From: Balneola sp.
GTDB lineage: Bacteria; Bacteroidota; Rhodothermia; Balneolales; Balneolaceae
NCBI GenBank assembly: GCA_028284195.1
Contig: JANQSE010000002.1
Location: 558,001-622,000 of the forward strand
Direction of reading: 5' to 3'
DNA: 64,000 bases
Positions 7,871 through 64,000 of the stretch are shown in pieces. The notes beneath the pieces were generated by a model. That model did no database searches, was not told the DNA's origin, and was given only the letters and a program-made list of their open reading frames with translations. Made by a program: the position numbers and the translations under genes. Positions within the stretch are counted from its first letter, which is position 1. The number at the start of each line of letters is the position of its first letter.

Positions 7871-10264
7871 TTATTTATTTGGAAACCATTTATTGATGGT
7901 ATTCTGAAGTTCTTCGATTTTCATAGGTTTGCTTAAAAAATCATCCATGCCTGCATTCAAACATTTATCGCGATCTTCCTGCAAAACATTTGCGGTTAAT
8001 GCTATTATGGTCGGGTTAGAAAAAAGTTCGTTCTGTTGTCTGATTTCTTTAGTTGTTTCTATTCCGTCCAGCAATGGCATTTGAACATCCATGAAAATAA
8101 GATCGAACTTTTCTGTGTTCATTAATTCGAGTGCTTCTACCCCATTGTTGGAAATTTTTGGAATGTAGCCGAGTTTTTCCAGATAGGCTCTTACTACAAT
8201 CTGGTTGGTAATGTTATCTTCAACCACGAGTATCGAAAGATGTTCATTGGTGTTATTTGATGGGGCATCTACATTCGTATCCTGAGATTTGCCTGCTCTT
8301 CCAAGATGGTCATTTATCTCTGAAATCAATTCAGATCTTTTAAGTGGTTTTGTTAACCGTTTTTGAAACTGGTCAAGGAATTTGCGGTCAATATTTGAGC
8401 CTAGCGGGTATAAAAGAATGAAAGAGATTTTTTTTGATTGAGCGTCGTGTATTTTTTTGAGTGTTTTTTCATCGCAATACTGCAGAAAATTGTAATCCAG
8501 GAAACATATATCGAAGCTTTCTTTACTACTCAGAAGTGTTTCAAGGCTTACAGAATCCTGTACACACTCAAGTTCTGCATTCCACGACTCAAATAAAGCA
8601 GAAACATCATTCATTAGTATGGCTGAATGAGATCCAAAACAGGCTTTAACTTTATCGAATGATGGTTTAGGGTGCTCAAGTTCAAGGTTTTTATCAAATT
8701 CAGTTTCAATGAAAAAAGTAAAAGAAGAGCCTTTATTGGGGGAGCTTTTAACGCTGATTGAGCCTCCCATTTTTTCCACAATGGTTTTACTAATGGTTAG
8801 TCCGAGCCCGGTTCCTTCAAATTTTTTGGTGGAGCTCAGGTCAACCTGAGTAAATGATTTGAATACATCTTTTTGACGATTTTCTTCGATTCCAATTCCT
8901 GTGTCTTCGACGGTGAAAATTACCTGGCCTTTTTGTGGGTTGTGCTCTTTACAGGAAATATGAACTCTTACATACCCTTGGTTAGTGAACTTAATAGCGT
9001 TATTGACAAGATTAACGAGAACCTGCTTAAGTCGTACCGGGTCGGTTTTAATGAATTGAGGTACATTGCTGTCGATCTGAGATAAAATTTCGAGTGATTT
9101 CTCATGAGCTTTTAATGCCAGCATGTACAGTACTTCTTCAAGGTGAGTATATAAATCTAACGTCTGCTCAGCAATTTCAAGTCTGCCGGATTCTATTTTG
9201 GAGTAATCCAGTATGTCATTAATGATAGTGATCAGGTCGTAACCGCTCTTTGATATAGTATCCACATAATTGAGCTGCTCTTTGGTAAGTTCAGTTTCCC
9301 TGAGTATATCAGTCATACCTATTACTGCATTCATAGGTGTGCGAATTTCATGGCTCATATTAGCCAGGAACATCGCTTTTGCTTGTGAAGCTTGTTCAGC
9401 GGTTTCTTTAGCTTCAATAAGCATCTGTTGTGTTTTTTCCAACTCTTTATTTTTTTGGGAAAGCTGCTCTGTTAGCTGCTCAAAATAATCCGCTTTTTTA
9501 AGTAAGAGCCGCTCAACCTGATTCTTTGTCAGAGTTCCGATCTTAGATTCATCCATAAGCTCTTCAGGAAGAAGAGATACAATTACTTTGAATGAGTTCA
9601 GGTTTATATAATTCTCGGCTAATTTTTGATATTCATCATCAAAACGTTGAAAGGCTGCCTTTTCGCCAATTTTATCGGCAAATGTTTCGTAAATAAGTGC
9701 AGAGAGTTTTTTTAATAATATAGACCAGTCATAGAAATTTTTTGGCTTTTTTATGTCGATCCCCAAATTTAGATTATTACTAAAACTGTGAGGGGCATTG
9801 GTAACCACTGTTTTTATGTTCTGTATCTTAGAGCTGCCCGAATTGCCAAGTACGTTGCCGATGTTTGTAATAATATTCAGCAAAAACATTCTGCACAGTA
9901 GTAATTCCTGAAGCTGCTGTTCCTTAAATATGAGGGCAAAATTCTCGAATTCAGCCAGATGAGGATATTGCTGTTTTATGTACCCTCTAAGTTGTTCTTT
10001 TGATCCTTTAAAATCGCTGCTAAAATCTGTAAGGTATTTTTCTACATACAGATATGTGAGAGTAAGCTTCTCTTTTTGTTCCTTTATAGACGAGTTTAAA
10101 AAGCTGCGGATGGGAACCAGGGTAGTTTGAGGATTATCCAAAGAAGAAACGCTTTCTTCGAGGTAAGAAAAAAGGGCAGCAGCTTCTTTTTTAAAGAGCT
10201 CATCAACATGATTAAGCTCTTCATCTTTTTTAAATGCGGATGATATAGAATCGAAAATTCCCAA
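7871..10264 (-). CDS. Soluble hybrid sensor histidine kinase with two receiver domains
   Basis: A 797-residue signalling protein with no transmembrane segment. Residues ~1-250 are an unrecognised helical input region and ~255-297 a coiled coil. The DHp helix has phospho-acceptor His305 in [10 protein letters not shown]. The HATPase domain (~400-520) has NNAIKFT, DTGIGI and [11 protein letters not shown] first receiver-like domain (~540-655) keeps FLD590 and Lys639 but lacks the paired acidic residues. A complete C-terminal receiver (~676-795) has VVEDN, Asp726 in MDVQMP and Lys779 in SKP. No output domain is seen, so the signal probably passes to a phosphotransfer partner elsewhere. The 120-aa membrane protein just upstream is a possible sensory partner (inference). 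Confidence 0.9.
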
Positions 10265-23215: not shown

Positions 23216-23258
23216 AGTATGTAGTACTTAGAGAGTGAACTTCTAAGTACTACATACT
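23216..23258. repeat. 17-bp perfect hairpin (TAAGTACTACATAC type)
   Basis: AGTATGTAGTACTTAGA (23216-23232) and its exact reverse complement (23242-23258) flank a 9-base loop. It lies between tRNA-Ile2 and the degraded gene fragment. The core TAAGTAC recurs at 2132-2146, so this looks like a dispersed intergenic repeat. It could also act as a terminator, but lacks a U run. Confidence 0.65.
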
Positions 23259-23270
23259 AACATCTGAGTA

Positions 23271-23385
23271 CTATAAAACTGACTCCACAAAAACCTCTTC
23301 AAAGCCATGAGGCGGGCGGTGCAGCGTCCAGGTTTCAAAGTAGAAATGTCGTTCAGACCGGGATTTTCACTTAATATTGGAAATT
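23271..23385 (-). pseudogene. Degraded 3' fragment copy of the 234-aa gene at 25364-26068
   Basis: About 80 bases are nearly identical to the 3' end of the gene at 25364. On the minus strand the fragment reads RSERHFYFETWTLHRPPHGF then EEVFVESVL and a stop; the intact gene has DRPPHGFEEVFVETLL. Upstream the match decays: a TGA replaces a GGA codon, followed by a small deletion. Nothing of the rest of the gene is present. The fragment and the intact gene sit on either side of the three-gene cassette, in the same orientation. Confidence 0.8.
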
Positions 23386-23403: not shown

Positions 23404-23850
23404 TTAATATTGATTTCTGACAATCAAATTTACAATATCATAAGTAGCTTGCTGGGATGATAAAGTCTTTTTCTTAAATGATCTGTAAACAATACTATTA
23501 TTTCTTTTTGTATCGATTAGATAGGCCTCTGGTGTCGAGCCAGTAGAATATTGATTATATAGATCTTTATTTTCAATAACTTGAAAATCAATTTTATTGC
23601 TAATTAATTCAAGTTCATCTATGTTTTCGATGATGCCAATAACCGATAGGTTATTAGGAGAGATATCGTTATTAAGATCATTAAAAATAGTAATCTCAAA
23701 AATACATGCAATGCAATCATCTTCAGAGAAAAAAACTACAAGGTTAAACCGGCTGTTGGAGTTCAGAACTGAGGAATCAAAATTACTTAGAGGCTCTTGT
23801 TGTTCGCAAGACAACAGCATTAACACGCAAAAAAATAAAATACCTTTCAT
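23404..23850 (-). CDS. Thioredoxin-like lipoprotein of the peptide cassette
   Basis: A 148-residue lipoprotein with lipobox MLLSC (Cys15). The rest resembles a thioredoxin/TlpA-type fold: FNLVVFFSEDDCIACI with CxxC at Cys46 and Cys49, then a strand-helix pattern and STGSTPEAYLID, whose TP is the expected cis-Pro loop. A periplasm-facing thiol oxidoreductase is likely. The start overlaps the stop of the propeller gene by 4 bases, so both are one unit. Visibly AT-richer than the surrounding chromosome. Confidence 0.75.
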   Translation of the reverse strand: MKGILFFCVLMLLSCEQQEPLSNFDSSVLNSNSRFNLVVFFSEDDCIACIFEITIFNDLNNDISPNNLSVIGIIENIDELELISNKIDFQVIENKDLYNQYSTGSTPEAYLIDTKRNNSIVYRSFKKKTLSSQQATYDIVNLIVRNQY

Positions 23851-24977
23851 AATTGTTTGAGTTTGACCATATGAAGCATTACTTCTTTTTTCTTCATATT
23901 TATTTTAGTATAGAATAAGTGATCTTCAAAAAATTGTACTGTCTTAAAAGATTCGGAAATATCAAAAACCTTTAGTGTTAATATTCTACTTTGATTAGCT
24001 TTTAATTCGAACTTCCCTAGATAGTATTTATTTTTATTAGAGTTTCTATCAACAAAAGTTATCCAAATGTTATTTTCGAAGAAGTGCATCTTATCAATCA
24101 AAAAAAGTGAATTCATAAAACTATAAAACTTTTCCTGATTGATGTTTTTTTTATCTAAGACTTGTTCATTCTTTCTTATAATCGGAGATTTTATTTTATA
24201 GTGTTTTGTATTGGTTAGATCAGATTTATCTATAATATGGAGATACTCAAGAGTAGTTTTCGCATAAATCAAAAGGCTATCATTAGAATAAAAACTTGTT
24301 TCATTAGACGATATAAAGTTTAGCGCGCCAGGACGAATATCTTTTATGCTGAAATTTATTGTATCTGCTTTGGAATCGATGTTGGAAATTGGATATGGGA
24401 AAATTTTATTATCCGAGACACGTGCATCGTAATTATAGGTATTAAACTTGACATCATTAACCCATAGTTTTAAAAATTTTCTATCTATTTCTTCAAGAGA
24501 TTCGTTGAATCTTTTTATCTGACCATTATCAAATACGTAGGTTATATGATTTTTTTCTGAAATTGAGTTAATGGTAGTTATTTCACCCGGTCCATATCCT
24601 TTTCGGCCAAAGGTTTTTATTAACTTTCCTGTTTTGTCATATTGAGCAATATTTTCTAATTCAGGCGAAAGAATAAGATTGTAAACATAAAAGTAGTTTT
24701 CTGTTTCGATTACTTTTGGAACTTCAATTGATACTGGGAGCGGCAATAATTTAGTAGATAATCTTAGTGATGAGGTATCTATAGACAAGGTCTTTTCAGT
24801 TTGTTCTACAAGAGAAACATTCTTTTTTGCCATATCTTTTACTACATCAAAGCTTTTTTCATCATGTTCGGATAAGAGTTCTTGTTGAACCTCTGTCATT
24901 TGTATATCATCAGTCGAGTTTTTTTTAATACAACTGAGCAAATTAGTTAGTAACAAAGCAATTAAAATTCTTTTCAT
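23847..24977 (-). CDS. 6-bladed beta-propeller lipoprotein
   Basis: A 376-residue lipoprotein (TNLLSC, Cys16). The segment KTFGRKGYGPGEITTI followed by YVFDNGQIKRFNE is the hallmark of Bacteroidota 6-bladed (NHL-like) beta-propeller lipoproteins. The remaining blades are diverged, with repeats of the type YFYVYNLILSPELENIAQYD. Probably surface or periplasmic, binding a peptide or ligand. It follows the 72-aa exported peptide gene, with a strong hairpin between them. AT-rich relative to neighbours. Confidence 0.8.
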   Translation of the reverse strand: MKRILIALLLTNLLSCIKKNSTDDIQMTEVQQELLSEHDEKSFDVVKDMAKKNVSLVEQTEKTLSIDTSSLRLSTKLLPLPVSIEVPKVIETENYFYVYNLILSPELENIAQYDKTGKLIKTFGRKGYGPGEITTINSISEKNHITYVFDNGQIKRFNESLEEIDRKFLKLWVNDVKFNTYNYDARVSDNKIFPYPISNIDSKADTINFSIKDIRPGALNFISSNETSFYSNDSLLIYAKTTLEYLHIIDKSDLTNTKHYKIKSPIIRKNEQVLDKKNINQEKFYSFMNSLFLIDKMHFFENNIWITFVDRNSNKNKYYLGKFELKANQSRILTLKVFDISESFKTVQFFEDHLFYTKINMKKKEVMLHMVKLKQL

Positions 24978-24990
24978 TTAATTGAAAAAT

Positions 24991-25023
24991 TAACTAAAAG
25001 TGTATTTAATACACTTTTAGTTA
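24991..25023 (-). terminator. 15-bp perfect hairpin between peptide gene and propeller gene
   Basis: TAACTAAAAGTGTAT and its exact reverse complement are separated by three bases, 8 bases after the small peptide's stop. On the minus strand the stem is followed by ATTTTTC. This shape suits partial termination or mRNA 3'-end protection, giving abundant peptide message and less of the two lipoprotein genes. Confidence 0.7.
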
Positions 25024-25030
25024 TTTAAGG

Positions 25031-25249
25031 TTAGTTGCAAAGTCCAAGTATACCAGGACAAAATTGAACAATAATAAGCCAGTCATCATCAACATGGATA
25101 TAACCATATTCTATATCCGTGGCAAAAGTATCTGGATTATCTATAAAGGTGATTTCTGGTTGAGCATTCAATTCAGTTCCTTTATGATTTGGAATTATTA
25201 TGGTTGCTATTGCTAAGAATAAACCTAAAAGAAGAGTTTTAGTTTTCAT
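25031..25249 (-). CDS. Small exported peptide with C-terminal Cys pair
   Basis: A 72-residue product: Lys-rich start, hydrophobic leader (LLLGLFLAIATIIIP) and a likely cleavage after LNA (residue 29). The 43-residue mature part is acidic (DNPD, VDDDW) and ends FCPGILGLCN with Cys64 and Cys71. It is the first gene of the AT-rich cassette with the propeller and thioredoxin-like lipoproteins. The arrangement recalls the NVEALA-type exported peptides that accompany 6-bladed-propeller lipoproteins in Bacteroides, but the sequence itself is not NVEALA. The function is unknown; disulfide formation by the linked thioredoxin-like protein is my inference. Confidence 0.65.
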   Translation of the reverse strand: MKTKTLLLGLFLAIATIIIPNHKGTELNAQPEITFIDNPDTFATDIEYGYIHVDDDWLIIVQFCPGILGLCN

Positions 25250-25303: not shown

Positions 25304-25333
25304 CATCAATATATATATATATATATATTGATG
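25304..25333. repeat. Perfect 30-base palindrome built on an (AT)n tract
   Basis: CATCAAT, an AT dinucleotide run, then ATTGATG. It lies 55 bases upstream of the exported-peptide gene and close to the 3' end of the 234-aa gene. A second small inverted repeat, TATGTG/CACATA, is at 25282-25299. It may be an operator, a terminator or simply a slippage-prone tract at the edge of the acquired cassette. Confidence 0.6.
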
Positions 25334-25363: not shown

Positions 25364-26068
25364 TCAAAGTAAAGTCTCCACAAACACTTCTTCAAAACCA
25401 TGGGGTGGGCGATCCAGCGTCCAGGTTTCAAAGTAGAAATGTCGTTCAGACCGGAACTTCTTTCCGTTAATACTGAAGAATCGAAATGCACCGGGAAGCA
25501 TTTGTTGTAACGGGTAAAAGAAGTTGGTATAAATATTCTTTTTGGAGAACAGATGGAGATCAAATCCGTTTTTAGCCTGTTCCTTGTAGATCACCACAAA
25601 GCCCGCTTCCAGTACTTCCTTTAATTCTGATTTGAGATGACCCACGTTTGAGTTGGTATCGATATGGAGCGAAGAAATGTCGAACTCTGTATTCTGTTCA
25701 CCAATGATAATCACTTCTCCATATTCCAGCTTTGATAGGGTCTCTTCCAGAGAAGAAAAATTTCCTTTGTTGGTTTGATAATGATCTGTTCCCAATCCTT
25801 TTTCCAACACCTCAATAAACCCATTGTATTCCGTAAGTACATTCAACCCGAATTGCTCATTCTCCAAATCGGTGGCTGTAAAATACAATCGGGAATAAGT
25901 AGGATCCGGCTTCATGAAGTCAGCCAGTGTGGATTCAATCTGTTCTTTGGTACGATTGGCATTCCGGTCTGCCAGAGCATCCAGGCGCTGATCGTGGTGA
26001 AAGATGAGTTTTAGAATTTGGGAGTTGTTCATAATGGGTCTGCTTACTGCTACTCTATGTGCTGTCAT
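25364..26068 (-). CDS. Hypothetical protein, 234 aa; source of the nearby 3' fragment
   Basis: A soluble alpha/beta protein with no signal peptide or membrane helix that I can assign to no family. Notable stretches are MKPDPTYSRLYFTATDLENE, LEYGEVIIIGEQNTEFDI and the C-terminal ERHFYFETWTLDRPPHGFEE. The in-frame ATG at residue 13 (MNNSQILKLIF) is a likely alternative start, since the first 12 residues look non-native. Its last ~35 codons are duplicated in degraded form at 23271-23385, beyond the cassette. Confidence 0.65.
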   Translation of the reverse strand: MTAHRVAVSRPIMNNSQILKLIFHHDQRLDALADRNANRTKEQIESTLADFMKPDPTYSRLYFTATDLENEQFGLNVLTEYNGFIEVLEKGLGTDHYQTNKGNFSSLEETLSKLEYGEVIIIGEQNTEFDISSLHIDTNSNVGHLKSELKEVLEAGFVVIYKEQAKNGFDLHLFSKKNIYTNFFYPLQQMLPGAFRFFSINGKKFRSERHFYFETWTLDRPPHGFEEVFVETLL

Positions 26069-58966: not shown

Positions 58967-61900
58967 ATGAATAGGTTAAGCATCTCTGAATGGGTTAGTC
59001 AGAATCGTTCTAATCTAAACTGGAAACATTGTGTAGTATTCGCTCTATTAATTGCTGCACCAGGAATGCAAGAAGTACAGGCACAATTTGCAGGGGGCAA
59101 CGGTACTCCGGAAGACCCATATCAAATCGAAACCTTTACCCAGTTAAATCGCATTCGAGATCATTTAGACTCTCACTTTATATTGTTATTTGATATTGAT
59201 ATGCAGGGTTCATGGATTCCTATTGGTACCGAAGAAGCACCTTTTACAGGTTCATTAAATGGAAATGGGAAGACAATAAAAGACCTTTCTATTTTCAACA
59301 CAGATTTACTAGAAAATGTTGGGTTGTTTGGAAAAACCAATGGTGCTTCAATTACTAATCTTAATGTAACTCTTGATGAAATACGTGGTTTTCATGATAA
59401 TGTAGGTGTCTTGGTAGGGTTTAGTGACAACTCTACAAACATCAGTTCTTGTAGGGTAAGTACTTCTTCTGATGGCGAGGGAAAGTTAGAAGGTTCTGAT
59501 AATGCAGGAGGATTGGTTGGATTTCAAGCCAATGGCTCTACTATCACAAAATCCAGGGCGGAAATAAAAAGTATTTTCACTACAGCTTCGAATGCAGGGG
59601 GCCTGGTTGGTCGTAGTTCTTCATCGACAATAACAAACAGTTATTCCAATGTACGGGTTAAAGCGACAACAAATGTAGGAGGCTTGATTGGTTTTAGTGA
59701 GTCTTCAACAGTAACCAATAGCTACTCAGTAGGAAAAGTAATTGGTTTTAGTACTACAGGTGGTTTTATTGGAAAGGTAAGTGGGACAAATGCAAATGTG
59801 GCAAAGATCTCTAACAGTTATTCTGCATCCAAAGTTAAGGCAGATACAGATAATGGAGTCGGATTATTTCTGGGTGCTTTATTTGGTGATACCGGGGGGT
59901 TACTCTTAGAATCCACCTCTTTTTTAGATTTCAGCGGTTTACCTGGAATTGGCGAAACTAATACTAATAAAATCAAGGCTTACAGCGGTATTAATGCAAC
60001 CTTGAACCGGTTAACCCAGGCAGAAATGCAGCAGCAAGCCTCATTCACAGGCTTCGATTTTATAGCGGTTTGGCAAATTAACGAAGGTTCCAGTTATCCT
60101 TTTCTCCGAGAAAATCCACAAACCCCGCCTCCGTTTGTTGAGATCATCCCGGAGTTTGCCGGAGGGGATGGTTCGCCCGGAAATCCATTCCAAATTGAGT
60201 TTCCTGAACAATTGGACAATATCAGGGATTACCCGGATTCCAGCTTTGTGCTGGTAGCAGATATCGACCTGGATACATTCCCTTTTAACCTGGGTGAAGG
60301 CTGGAATCCCGTTGGAATAGGCATAGGATTTCCTGCCATACCATTCACAGGCACTATTGACGGAGGCGGATATACCATTTCAAATCTTTATGTGAATACA
60401 ACTTCAAACGGTGCCAGTCTGTTAGGTTTTACTGAGAATTGCTCGGTACAAAATTTGAATTTTGAATATGCAACAGTGATGGGAGCCCAGAGAACGGGGA
60501 TACTTGCATCGCAATCCACGGGATGCGCTTTTGAAAACATTTCTGTTCGGGATCAAAGCTTCAATGCTCTTCCTAAAGCCGGCACTTTTTCAGCAAACGA
60601 AGTTGACTCATTAGACAATGTAGTTTCCGGAACCTTATACGTAGGGGGCTTAGTGGGCTATGTAATCAGCAGTACGTTCGATAGTGTTTTTGTAGAAGCC
60701 TCAGTCAGCAACTCCGGCACCGGAACCGGTGGTATTGCCGGCATCCTGTTGACTTCTTCAAGCATTACGAACAGCGCTTCTGCCGGCATAGTACAAAGCG
60801 AGGGCAATAGCACGGGAGGAATTGCCGGGGAAAACTTAACCTCATCATTAATCAGAAAGAGTTATTCAACATCCCAAATAGACGGAGGAAAACTATACTC
60901 CGGCGGGCTTGTCGGGAACAATAGCAATAGCGCAAGAATTGCTAATTCATACGCTTTAGGCTTTGTGAGTGGCAAACGAGACGTTGGGGGCCTGGTTGGC
61001 AGAAATAGAAATGCCGCCATAATTGATAGCAGCTACAGTGCAGGGCTGGTATCAGGAGATACAAATGCCGGAGGCTTAGCCGGTTCTAATAACAGCCAGG
61101 TGAACAACAGTTTCTGGAATACTCAAACTTCAGGCTTTGGTATTTCAGTGGGGGGAGCACCTTTCTCCGATGATGCTATGAAAGCACAAGATTCCCTGTC
61201 TACCCTGATCGATTTTACGAGCATTTGGACGATAACAGAAGGGTCAAGCTTTCCATATTTGCAATCGAATACCCCACTAACTCCACCCACATTAGATATT
61301 CCCCAGATATTTGCCGGAGGTACCGGAACGGCTGCAGATCCATATCAAATTTCTACTGTTTCTCATTTGAGCAGCGTCAGAAACTATCCGAATTCGAATT
61401 TTTCATTGCAAAATAACCTGAGCCTGGAGCCTTCAGATTATTCTGATGCAGAAGAAGGCTGGGTGCCCATTGGTTCGGAGTCTTTTCCATTCACCAAGAC
61501 CTTTACAGGAAATGATTTTACGATTTCAAATCTGTTTATCAATCGCGGGATATCGGATAATGTTGGGTTTTTTGGGTATGTAGAAAATGGCATGATTTCC
61601 AACCTGAATCTTGCCAACGTAAATGTAACCGGAAATAACAAAGTTGGAGGGCTTGTTGGATACCAGAATGGTGCCGGTGTGGAGCATAGTACCGTTACAG
61701 GTTCTGTAACAGGGGAAAATGACCGGGTTGGCGGCCTTGTAGGTAACCAGGAAGGTGCCACTGTTACACATAGTACGTTTAACGGTTCTGTTACGGGAGA
61801 TTTTTGGGTTGGCGGGCTCGTTGGTTTCCAGGGAGAGAACTCTTCAACAACAAATAGTTCTTCTGATGCGCTTGTGAATGGAACAGGTATTGTTGGAGGG

Positions 61901-64000
61901 TTGGTTGGCAATAGTGCTTCTTCCGGAATAGAGAAAAGTTTTTCGACATCGGAAGTGCATGCAACCGGAGATGATGCCGGGGGCCTAGTTGGCATTAATT
62001 CAGCATCAACTATTACCGAGTCATATTATGCAGGGGAAGGAGTATTTGGAGATACCAATATAGGAGGCCTGGCAGGAGAGAATACGTCTTCTTCAGCTAT
62101 AAGCAACAGTTACAGTATCGGGGAAGTAGAGGGAACTTCCCATGTTGGGGGCTTTGTGGGGCTGAACAGTTCTTCGAACCTAACCGATAATTATAGTGCA
62201 GGGTTGGTTACAGGTATCGACAATGTAGGTGGTTTTCTGGGAGAGATATCAGGAATTGCTTCGGAAAGTGTATTTTGGAACACTCAAACCTCAGGGCAGG
62301 GAGCCAGCCCCGGTACAGCTTCGGTAGGTTTAACCAATACGCAGGCAAAACAGCAAGCATCTTATACAGGTTTCGATTTTGCGGCTACTTGGGGAATTGA
62401 TGAAGGTTCAGGTTACCCGTTCTTGTTAAATGTAGTACAAAACCCGGGCCCGGTACTGGATATTCCTGAATTTTTTGCCGGAGGTTCGGGTACAGAATCA
62501 GACCCATACTTAGTAAGCACCCCCGGGCATTTAAACAATGTGAAAAGGTATCTGGCCAGTTCATACCGTCAGGTTTCGGATATAGATATGAATGTTCAAC
62601 CTTATAATATTAATGAAGGATGGTACCCCATTGGCAGCGGAGATTCCTTCGGGAATTCGTTTGTCAGGTTTGAAGGCGAATTTGACGGAGACGGTTATTC
62701 CATCAAATATCTGTTTATTAACCGCCCAACTGCCAACAATGCAGGTTTATTTGGTTGGACTGAAGCCGCTTCTATCACGAATGTGCATCTTCAGGAAGCA
62801 AATGTAACAGGCAAAGTATATACCGGTGCACTTGTTGGGAGGTTTTCAAACTCCATGATCGATTCCAGTTCATCGTCGGGCGATATAAACGGAACCGTAC
62901 GTGTAGGCGGATTGATAGGAAGTAACGAAACATCAGATATATCCAGAAGTTCATCAAAAGCAGATGTGCGTGCGTCCGGTAGCTACGCCGGTGGATTAGT
63001 CGGCCGCCATGATGATGGAATGATTTCCGAGTCCTACTCAACAGGAGAGGTTAATGGCAATGATTGGGTTGGAGGATTAATAGGTTTTATGGCTGGCGGG
63101 TCTGTCTCCAACAGCTACAGCACTTCTTCTGTAACCGGTGATGCGACAGTTGGCGGCTTTATTGGAAACAATTCCACAAATGGCACCATCGAAAATGTAT
63201 ATAGTTCAGGATTAGTAACGGGGAATACATCTGTGGGAGGGTTAACAGGCCTTGATACAGGAACATTAACCGGAGGCTGGTGGAATACCGAAAGTTCCGG
63301 ACAGGCAGCTTCTGCAAGCGGAACCGGACTCACCGATGCAATGACAAAAATGCAAGCTTCATTCACTGGCTTCGACTTTACCAATACATGGGCTATTACC
63401 GAAACGGAGACCTTTCCGTTTTTACAGCAAAATATCCAAAGTCCGGGGCCGGGTATTCCAGTTGTGCTTCCGGATACGGTGCTGCTTTCATCTCCTTCAG
63501 ATGATTCTTTACGCACTCCCATCAATTTAACGTTGGCATGGGGAAGCACCCCTGATGCAATCAGCTATCATATCCAGGTTTCGTCGAATATGGAATTCAC
63601 TTCCATTATCGCACAAAATGAAGATGCTGCAGGGTTAACCTTTGAGCTGAGCAATCTTGAAAATCTGGCGACGTACTACTGGAGAGTGAGAGCTGAAAAC
63701 GAGTTTGGGTTTGGGGAATGGTCTGCTGTATGGTCGTTTACAACCACCGGACTTCCTCCGGCACGAGTTGTTCTGAATTCCCCCACCGACAGCCTTGAAG
63801 GAGTAGCAGGCGAACCTACATTAGCCTGGAACAGTGCGGAAACAGCCATAAGTTACTCTTTACAGGTATCTGCTTCGGAGGAATTCACTGCCCCGGTAAT
63901 TGATGAAGAAAACCTGGCCGACACGAGTCTTATGGTGGTTGGCCTTGAGGGTTTAACAACGTATTACTGGAGAGTAAGGGCGGGTAATGAGTTTGGCAAT
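58967..64000 (+). CDS. Giant secreted GLUG-repeat/fibronectin III surface protein, partial at 3' end
   Basis: Open from ATG 58967 to the window edge: at least 1,678 codons and no stop. GGGAG lies 7 bases before the start. A signal peptide ends EVQAQ (cleavage near residue 39). Four ~360-390-residue modules start at residues ~41, 397, 782 and 1170 with FAGGxGTxxDPYQI. Each is filled with GLUG turns (VGGLVG, AGGLVG, NSYS) and ends with a FxxFDFxxxWxIxEGSxYPFL pattern. After residue ~1500 come fibronectin III domains (LSSPSDDSLRTP, TYYWRVRAENEFG; then a second copy). A C-terminal sorting domain is likely beyond the window. Probably an adhesin; no enzyme motif seen. Confidence 0.9.
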   Translation, partial: MNRLSISEWVSQNRSNLNWKHCVVFALLIAAPGMQEVQAQFAGGNGTPEDPYQIETFTQLNRIRDHLDSHFILLFDIDMQGSWIPIGTEEAPFTGSLNGNGKTIKDLSIFNTDLLENVGLFGKTNGASITNLNVTLDEIRGFHDNVGVLVGFSDNSTNISSCRVSTSSDGEGKLEGSDNAGGLVGFQANGSTITKSRAEIKSIFTTASNAGGLVGRSSSSTITNSYSNVRVKATTNVGGLIGFSESSTVTNSYSVGKVIGFSTTGGFIGKVSGTNANVAKISNSYSASKVKADTDNGVGLFLGALFGDTGGLLLESTSFLDFSGLPGIGETNTNKIKAYSGINATLNRLTQAEMQQQASFTGFDFIAVWQINEGSSYPFLRENPQTPPPFVEIIPEFAGGDGSPGNPFQIEFPEQLDNIRDYPDSSFVLVADIDLDTFPFNLGEGWNPVGIGIGFPAIPFTGTIDGGGYTISNLYVNTTSNGASLLGFTENCSVQNLNFEYATVMGAQRTGILASQSTGCAFENISVRDQSFNALPKAGTFSANEVDSLDNVVSGTLYVGGLVGYVISSTFDSVFVEASVSNSGTGTGGIAGILLTSSSITNSASAGIVQSEGNSTGGIAGENLTSSLIRKSYSTSQIDGGKLYSGGLVGNNSNSARIANSYALGFVSGKRDVGGLVGRNRNAAIIDSSYSAGLVSGDTNAGGLAGSNNSQVNNSFWNTQTSGFGISVGGAPFSDDAMKAQDSLSTLIDFTSIWTITEGSSFPYLQSNTPLTPPTLDIPQIFAGGTGTAADPYQISTVSHLSSVRNYPNSNFSLQNNLSLEPSDYSDAEEGWVPIGSESFPFTKTFTGNDFTISNLFINRGISDNVGFFGYVENGMISNLNLANVNVTGNNKVGGLVGYQNGAGVEHSTVTGSVTGENDRVGGLVGNQEGATVTHSTFNGSVTGDFWVGGLVGFQGENSSTTNSSSDALVNGTGIVGGLVGNSASSGIEKSFSTSEVHATGDDAGGLVGINSASTITESYYAGEGVFGDTNIGGLAGENTSSSAISNSYSIGEVEGTSHVGGFVGLNSSSNLTDNYSAGLVTGIDNVGGFLGEISGIASESVFWNTQTSGQGASPGTASVGLTNTQAKQQASYTGFDFAATWGIDEGSGYPFLLNVVQNPGPVLDIPEFFAGGSGTESDPYLVSTPGHLNNVKRYLASSYRQVSDIDMNVQPYNINEGWYPIGSGDSFGNSFVRFEGEFDGDGYSIKYLFINRPTANNAGLFGWTEAASITNVHLQEANVTGKVYTGALVGRFSNSMIDSSSSSGDINGTVRVGGLIGSNETSDISRSSSKADVRASGSYAGGLVGRHDDGMISESYSTGEVNGNDWVGGLIGFMAGGSVSNSYSTSSVTGDATVGGFIGNNSTNGTIENVYSSGLVTGNTSVGGLTGLDTGTLTGGWWNTESSGQAASASGTGLTDAMTKMQASFTGFDFTNTWAITETETFPFLQQNIQSPGPGIPVVLPDTVLLSSPSDDSLRTPINLTLAWGSTPDAISYHIQVSSNMEFTSIIAQNEDAAGLTFELSNLENLATYYWRVRAENEFGFGEWSAVWSFTTTGLPPARVVLNSPTDSLEGVAGEPTLAWNSAETAISYSLQVSASEEFTAPVIDEENLADTSLMVVGLEGLTTYYWRVRAGNEFGN

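Follow-up and report, generated by a model that had tools for sequence, protein, structure and literature searches.

We describe a three-gene cassette from a Balneola genome that we read as a horizontally acquired unit composed of a secreted, disulfide-looped peptide, its own oxidoreductase and a cognate propeller lipoprotein that would recognise the peptide, and to this reading we give a probability of roughly 0.55. The cassette lies in the 64,000-nucleotide stretch of DNA that was analysed (hereafter the window) and consists of three minus-strand ORFs, for the peptide, a propeller-like lipoprotein and a thioredoxin-like lipoprotein (Table 1). Layouts that combine a peptide with a propeller are widespread in Bacteroidota but undescribed, and the cassette is one of their rare versions.

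Table 1. Positions in the window of the cassette genes, the hairpin and the flanking features.
Feature	Position	Strand	Basis
Displaced original 3' end of the 234-aa gene, distal repeat copy	23283..23366	-	Comparison with relatives
148-aa thioredoxin-like lipoprotein, CIAC active-site motif	23404..23850	-	ORF; lipobox LLSC; profiles
376-aa propeller-like lipoprotein	23847..24977	-	ORF; lipobox LLSC; remote homology
Hairpin in the peptide-propeller gap, 15-bp perfect stem	24988..25026	-	Folding and shuffles
72-aa exported peptide precursor (predicted)	25031..25249	-	ORF; homologues L022:1101-1301 and L023:~911-1156
Perfect AT palindrome upstream of peptide	25304..25333	.	Sequence
Promoter-like TTGACA-18-TATATT (11/12), overlapping the AT palindrome	25337-25308	-	Sequence match
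3' portion of the 234-aa gene as it now stands, proximal repeat copy	25376..25459	-	Comparison with relatives

An earlier note on this DNA had described an AT-rich cassette encoding a 72-aa product with a leader and an acidic core ending in CPGILGLCN, two linked lipoproteins, one a 6-bladed propeller and one with a CxxC thioredoxin-like site, and a perfect 15-bp hairpin between the peptide gene and the rest. All of this was borne out, the propeller and thioredoxin assignments of the window copies being the weaker points. The G+C content of the cassette is 27-31% (about 29%) against about 38-44% (about 40%) around it, both lipoproteins have an LLSC lipobox-like start, and their genes overlap by 4 nt. 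No transporter gene is present within the cassette. Promoter-like matches such as the one upstream of the peptide are no more frequent in the region than in shuffled sequences.

The peptide has a hydrophobic N-terminus with a Sec-type signal, followed by an acidic core containing a DTFAT motif and by the C-terminal CPGILGLCN, and after the likely cut between LNA and QP the mature form would have a net charge of -8. For the precursor from Fodinibius halophilus, one of the homologues, the signal is predicted to be cut between ASA and DIII. In the structure model, which is of low confidence (pLDDT 61), a signal helix is followed by a beta-hairpin (47-54/57-63) before the Cys loop. Eight residues are invariant between this peptide and the two homologues described below (D40, F42, A43, C64, P65, G66, G69 and C71), such that all three have D-x-F-A-[ST], in the variants DTFAT, DWFAS and DTFAS, and a C-terminal CPGxxGxC. 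Among these three the C-terminal half is the conserved half, and a constant leader with a variable core is not seen.

Regarding the propeller, the lipobox and a remote homology uphold the earlier assignment, but no Pfam threshold is passed, as neither the window protein nor its homologues reach the gathering score of PF17170 or PF15869. Profile comparison with the 6-bladed propellers of Balneolaceae gave 98.2% over 81 columns, and that with the propellers of NVEALA loci, a remoter relation, 96.5% over 46 columns. The protein is propeller-like by remote homology, as predicted from one conserved blade segment, with the other blades not aligned. An AlphaFold model generated from three sequences was poor (pLDDT 42), and the Foldseek list obtained with it, which included the DUF4221 protein 3s9j and BtuG, was discarded as evidence given TM-scores of at most about 0.25.

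The window thioredoxin-like protein matches PF00578 below threshold (E 1e-3), while the Fodinibius halophilus copy scores above the cut-off and the thioredoxin profile matches ResA at 5e-6. It shares the thioredoxin fold region and CxxC with ResA/TlpA proteins, but is lipid-anchored, shorter and peptide-linked. Against the CxxC protein of NVEALA loci, profile comparison gave 69.5%. Homology to the CxxC proteins that accompany the other peptides of Balneolaceae was unsupported, and because the alignment to these is poor (2%), the redox partner of such peptide loci may have been recruited more than once.

We searched for relatives in 92 genomes of the family and in a sample of 394 genomes of the phylum. 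In the family, only two close relatives of the window propeller were found, in Fodinibius halophilus 2W32 (G009; contig NZ_JAALLS010000024.1) and in the metagenome-assembled genome (MAG) Rhodothermia bacterium 7_bin.32 (G035), with identities to the window copy of 38% and 30% for the propeller and 48% and 24% for the thioredoxin-like protein. The peptide search retrieved small ORFs directly before both of these propellers, and the order of peptide, hairpin, propeller and thioredoxin-like gene is identical in both genomes. The earlier note had proposed looking for such homologous small ORFs and for a conserved gene order; the small ORF is present beside the only two related propeller/thioredoxin pairs found, which confirms that the three-gene observation is beyond chance, and the order is the same in all three carriers. 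The three genes occur together in 3/92 family genomes and never apart, and the three sites, in three genera, are all different. Strong scores with the thioredoxin profile were likewise limited to these carriers; since the propeller, peptide and thioredoxin searches all find only the same three, the genes are rare and travel together. The phylum sample yielded no further propeller of this family and no convincing peptide, and its other peptide-profile matches (E 0.001-0.05), mostly inside long ORFs, were taken as chance. No relatives were found in plasmids, phages or viral contigs, where the contig scans used exact short patterns and are insensitive.

Comparison with relatives further indicates that the cassette is acquired. 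An 84-bp direct repeat, which the earlier note had not mentioned and whose copies are 89% identical, flanks the cassette. It corresponds to the 3'-terminal stretch of the adjacent 234-aa gene, and this gene is intact and single in all seven other genomes of the genus. The distal copy continues to the gene end as it does in relatives (ESVL-stop). The proximal copy, now fused to the 234-aa gene, loses similarity after GTGGAG and has last codons unlike those of relatives, and the two copies are about equally distant from relatives. Because the distal copy is the original gene end, incoming DNA with the cassette joined inside the 3' end of the 234-aa gene and displaced that end. In F. halophilus, the cassette adjoins what is left of a dehydrogenase gene, its C-terminal 48 residues; the 11 other genomes of that genus have this gene intact beside ilvE. 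The F. halophilus contig stops shortly beyond the cassette. No integrase was seen; as the route, DNA uptake followed by illegitimate recombination with the help of homology would fit. The 234-aa protein itself (25364-26068), whose C-terminus was replaced by the insertion, is conserved in 8/8 genus genomes and has no Pfam match above cut-off.

The intergenic hairpin has a predicted energy of -15.9 kcal/mol (z -6.7), with 0/200 shuffles as good. Hairpins unrelated to it in sequence stand at the same position in both homologous cassettes (L022 and L023), and a short T tract (ATTTTTC) follows on the minus (coding) strand in the window copy only, such that the element could be either a terminator or a 3'-end stabiliser. 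Searching the hairpins against Rfam retrieved no structure match, the only finding being tRNA. More broadly, 22/24 peptide-propeller gaps have a hairpin with z < -2 against 15/80 control gaps (Mann-Whitney p 2e-10), in loci that were chosen by similarity to propellers, with heuristic ORF calls and with loci of the same genome non-independent. The predicted reading of the hairpin as a means to make much peptide and little machinery gains from this recurrence. A different, 17-bp perfect hairpin, AGTATGTAGTACTTAGA, lies downstream of the cassette (23216-23258), and a similar one precedes the F. halophilus cassette (L022 810-838). It was rejected as a cassette end, given partial copies elsewhere in the genus, and is more likely a dispersed (possibly REP-like) element or a terminator.

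The layout was compared to that of the NVEALA (PF14055) peptide loci of Bacteroidales, to which the earlier note had likened it while remarking that the peptide differs; both remarks hold. All 11 of the 11 NVEALA ORFs examined, from two Bacteroidales-type genomes, are followed by a lipoprotein of propeller size and type (PF15869/PF17170), and at several loci a CxxC lipoprotein comes next, with a DUF1573 domain in two cases. The window locus has the same order of peptide, hairpin in the gap, propeller lipoprotein and CxxC lipoprotein, and in both a leader precedes a short Cys core, some NVEALA cores having a Gly-rich C-x7-C loop (CNGIGSLDC) like the CPGILGLC of the window. Membership of the peptide in PF14055 was nevertheless rejected: the profile matches neither the window peptide nor its homologues, nor anything in the Balneolaceae genomes of the sample, profile-profile comparison aligns the signal only (18%), and the NVEALA motif at the leader end is absent from the peptides of the cassette family. 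The likeness between EALA[SN] and DTFA[ST] is no more than suggestive. Unlike their NVEALA counterparts, the window propeller is below Pfam thresholds and the thioredoxin-like protein is without a DUF1573 domain. There is also no S26 signal peptidase near the window cassette. Genes for S26-type signal peptidases lie inside both NVEALA arrays examined (L167:12835-13725 and L170:2293-3180; Pfam-confirmed in one), and as NVEALA ends in A-L-A, a signal-peptidase-like site, their products may be dedicated leader peptidases.

Peptides beside propellers are not limited to these two families. Across 41 family loci, which were selected by propeller similarity, with heuristic ORF calls and with loci within a genome non-independent, a small ORF for an exported product with two or more Cys precedes 22/121 propeller genes versus 4/157 other genes (Fisher p 1e-5). 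Some of these peptides have Sec signals like that of the window, and some have double-glycine (GG) leaders near TIGR04149 or NF047798. Among PF15869 propeller loci from the phylum sample, 14/28 pass a similar peptide filter, or about 13, as one (L180) resembles a membrane protein rather than a Cys peptide; the only names that Pfam or NCBIfam gave for these peptides were NVEALA and, by a weak match, DUF6520. Unnamed Cys peptides with Sec export thus accompany propellers in Balneolaceae and more widely in Bacteroidota, one of them near DUF6520. They share with the window the hairpin, the propeller and often a CxxC or membrane redox protein, but their sequences are unrelated to that of the window, they usually have 4-6 Cys, and the redox gene often precedes the peptide. 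In the open literature (subscription journals being outside the scope), we found no description of NVEALA, DUF5128, PF15869, PF14055 or DUF6520 as a system. The genome of the window harbours two further loci of note. One is a second peptide-propeller pair, in which an exported Cys-rich ORF of 116 aa immediately precedes the gene for a TolB_like propeller lipoprotein (L055:3388-4788, G000:C12), and the other is a propeller cluster (L053:4031-8911, G000:C17) ending in a C39-type double-glycine-peptidase-like protein (8417-8911), as if for GG-leader peptides.

Closely related copies of such loci vary in a consistent manner. In four close pairs of NVEALA paralogues, the leaders are 84-93% identical up to NVEALA, while the cores are 11-26% and the propellers 21-25% identical. 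In a triplicate array of thioredoxin-like, peptide and propeller genes (L058:2871-10106, G037:C6), the DNA of the thioredoxin-like gene and the signal is mostly 95-100% identical, falls abruptly to about 43-75% in the mature peptide and stays low to moderate through the propeller. The middle peptide of this array is truncated to 40 aa. This is the pattern expected if the leader and the redox enzyme are general parts and the peptide and propeller a specific pair, and it is the main reason for which we chose recognition by the propeller as the mechanism.

According to the mechanism we favour, one transcript would start before the peptide gene, and the hairpin would limit read-through or protect the 3' end, so that more of the peptide than of the two lipoproteins would be made. 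The peptide would exit the cytoplasm by Sec, lose its signal and fold as a beta-hairpin, the dedicated thioredoxin-like lipoprotein would close the loop between C64 and C71, and the propeller lipoprotein would be the cognate partner binding the mature peptide. In kind, the locus belongs with the NVEALA loci, where the leader and redox enzyme are constant and the peptide and propeller vary together. From such covariation either a ligand-receptor or a toxin-immunity pair is expected; we consider the former, by which self or neighbours would be recognised on the cell surface, likelier than the latter, and rank a structural subunit below either of them. Given that the cassette encodes no outer-membrane exporter, the peptide may remain in the periplasm.

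That the peptide is instead a narrow-spectrum antibacterial with dedicated disulfide maturation, and the propeller lipoprotein its immunity protein, seems unlikely to us but deserves weight. The cassette is patchy, acquired and AT-rich, a constant leader with a variable core and partner recalls polymorphic toxin-immunity pairs, and many related propeller loci have GG-leader, bacteriocin-like precursors. Bacteroidetocins (class IIf bacteriocins) are also small, Cys-containing exported peptides, and they carry their own thiol oxidoreductase gene because Bacteroides lack general disulfide machinery (PMC6671954). They show that in this phylum a small exported peptide can have a dedicated thiol oxidoreductase, which makes a redox enzyme of its own sensible for the present peptide on the recognition reading as well. 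The window peptide, by comparison, has a Sec signal and not a GG leader, is acidic and not basic, has two Cys and not four, and is accompanied by a propeller but by no peptidase ABC exporter. All 25 mature peptides examined (with cuts placed by eye) are acidic or neutral and none is cationic, unlike the basic bacteroidetocins, and this disfavours a classical cationic membrane-active peptide. Furthermore, the Sec-type cassettes are without an exporter, the hairpin would starve an immunity partner, and PADLOC detects no known defence family.

A peptide that is never released and serves the propeller lipoprotein as a structural or redox subunit, in a periplasmic or outer-membrane complex, would agree with the Sec signal, the missing outer-membrane exporter, the two lipoprotein partners and the propeller/thioredoxin gene overlap. 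Unequal dosage is suggested, however, by the strong hairpin that follows the peptide gene, and core variability in related loci is unlike that of a structural subunit; we regard such a complex as unlikely, slightly more so than the antibacterial. By far the least likely is a chance small ORF in a decaying or recently acquired accessory cassette in which only the propeller and thioredoxin-like genes matter. The cassette is indeed very rare, and the MAG copy has a split propeller frame and a peptide without an in-frame ATG; yet the peptide motif and position are conserved in three genera, the F. halophilus copy is all intact, and the frame errors of the MAG are likely artefacts, as the coverage of that contig is 2.04.

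If the recognition reading is extended to the phylum, Bacteroidota would hold a polymorphic peptide-propeller system in which varied disulfide peptides make use of a constant leader and redox enzyme and are each paired with a propeller lipoprotein of their own, encoded behind a hairpin that sets dosage, and of which NVEALA, the CPGxxGxC family and the GG-leader peptides would be versions. We advance this extension tentatively, at slightly less than even odds. Both NVEALA and the 6-bladed propeller lipoproteins are families of Bacteroidota, and the window cassette offers a minimal, self-contained version with three genes outside Bacteroides. The recurring layout predicts that a peptide, once oxidised, is bound by the propeller whose gene follows its own, and if true, this would point to a large class of secreted peptides and receptors in a main bacterial phylum. 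Elsewhere in the window, an open frame of >1678 aa (58967-64000) with GLUG-like repeats and fibronectin-like segments runs off the end and encodes a probable giant surface protein.
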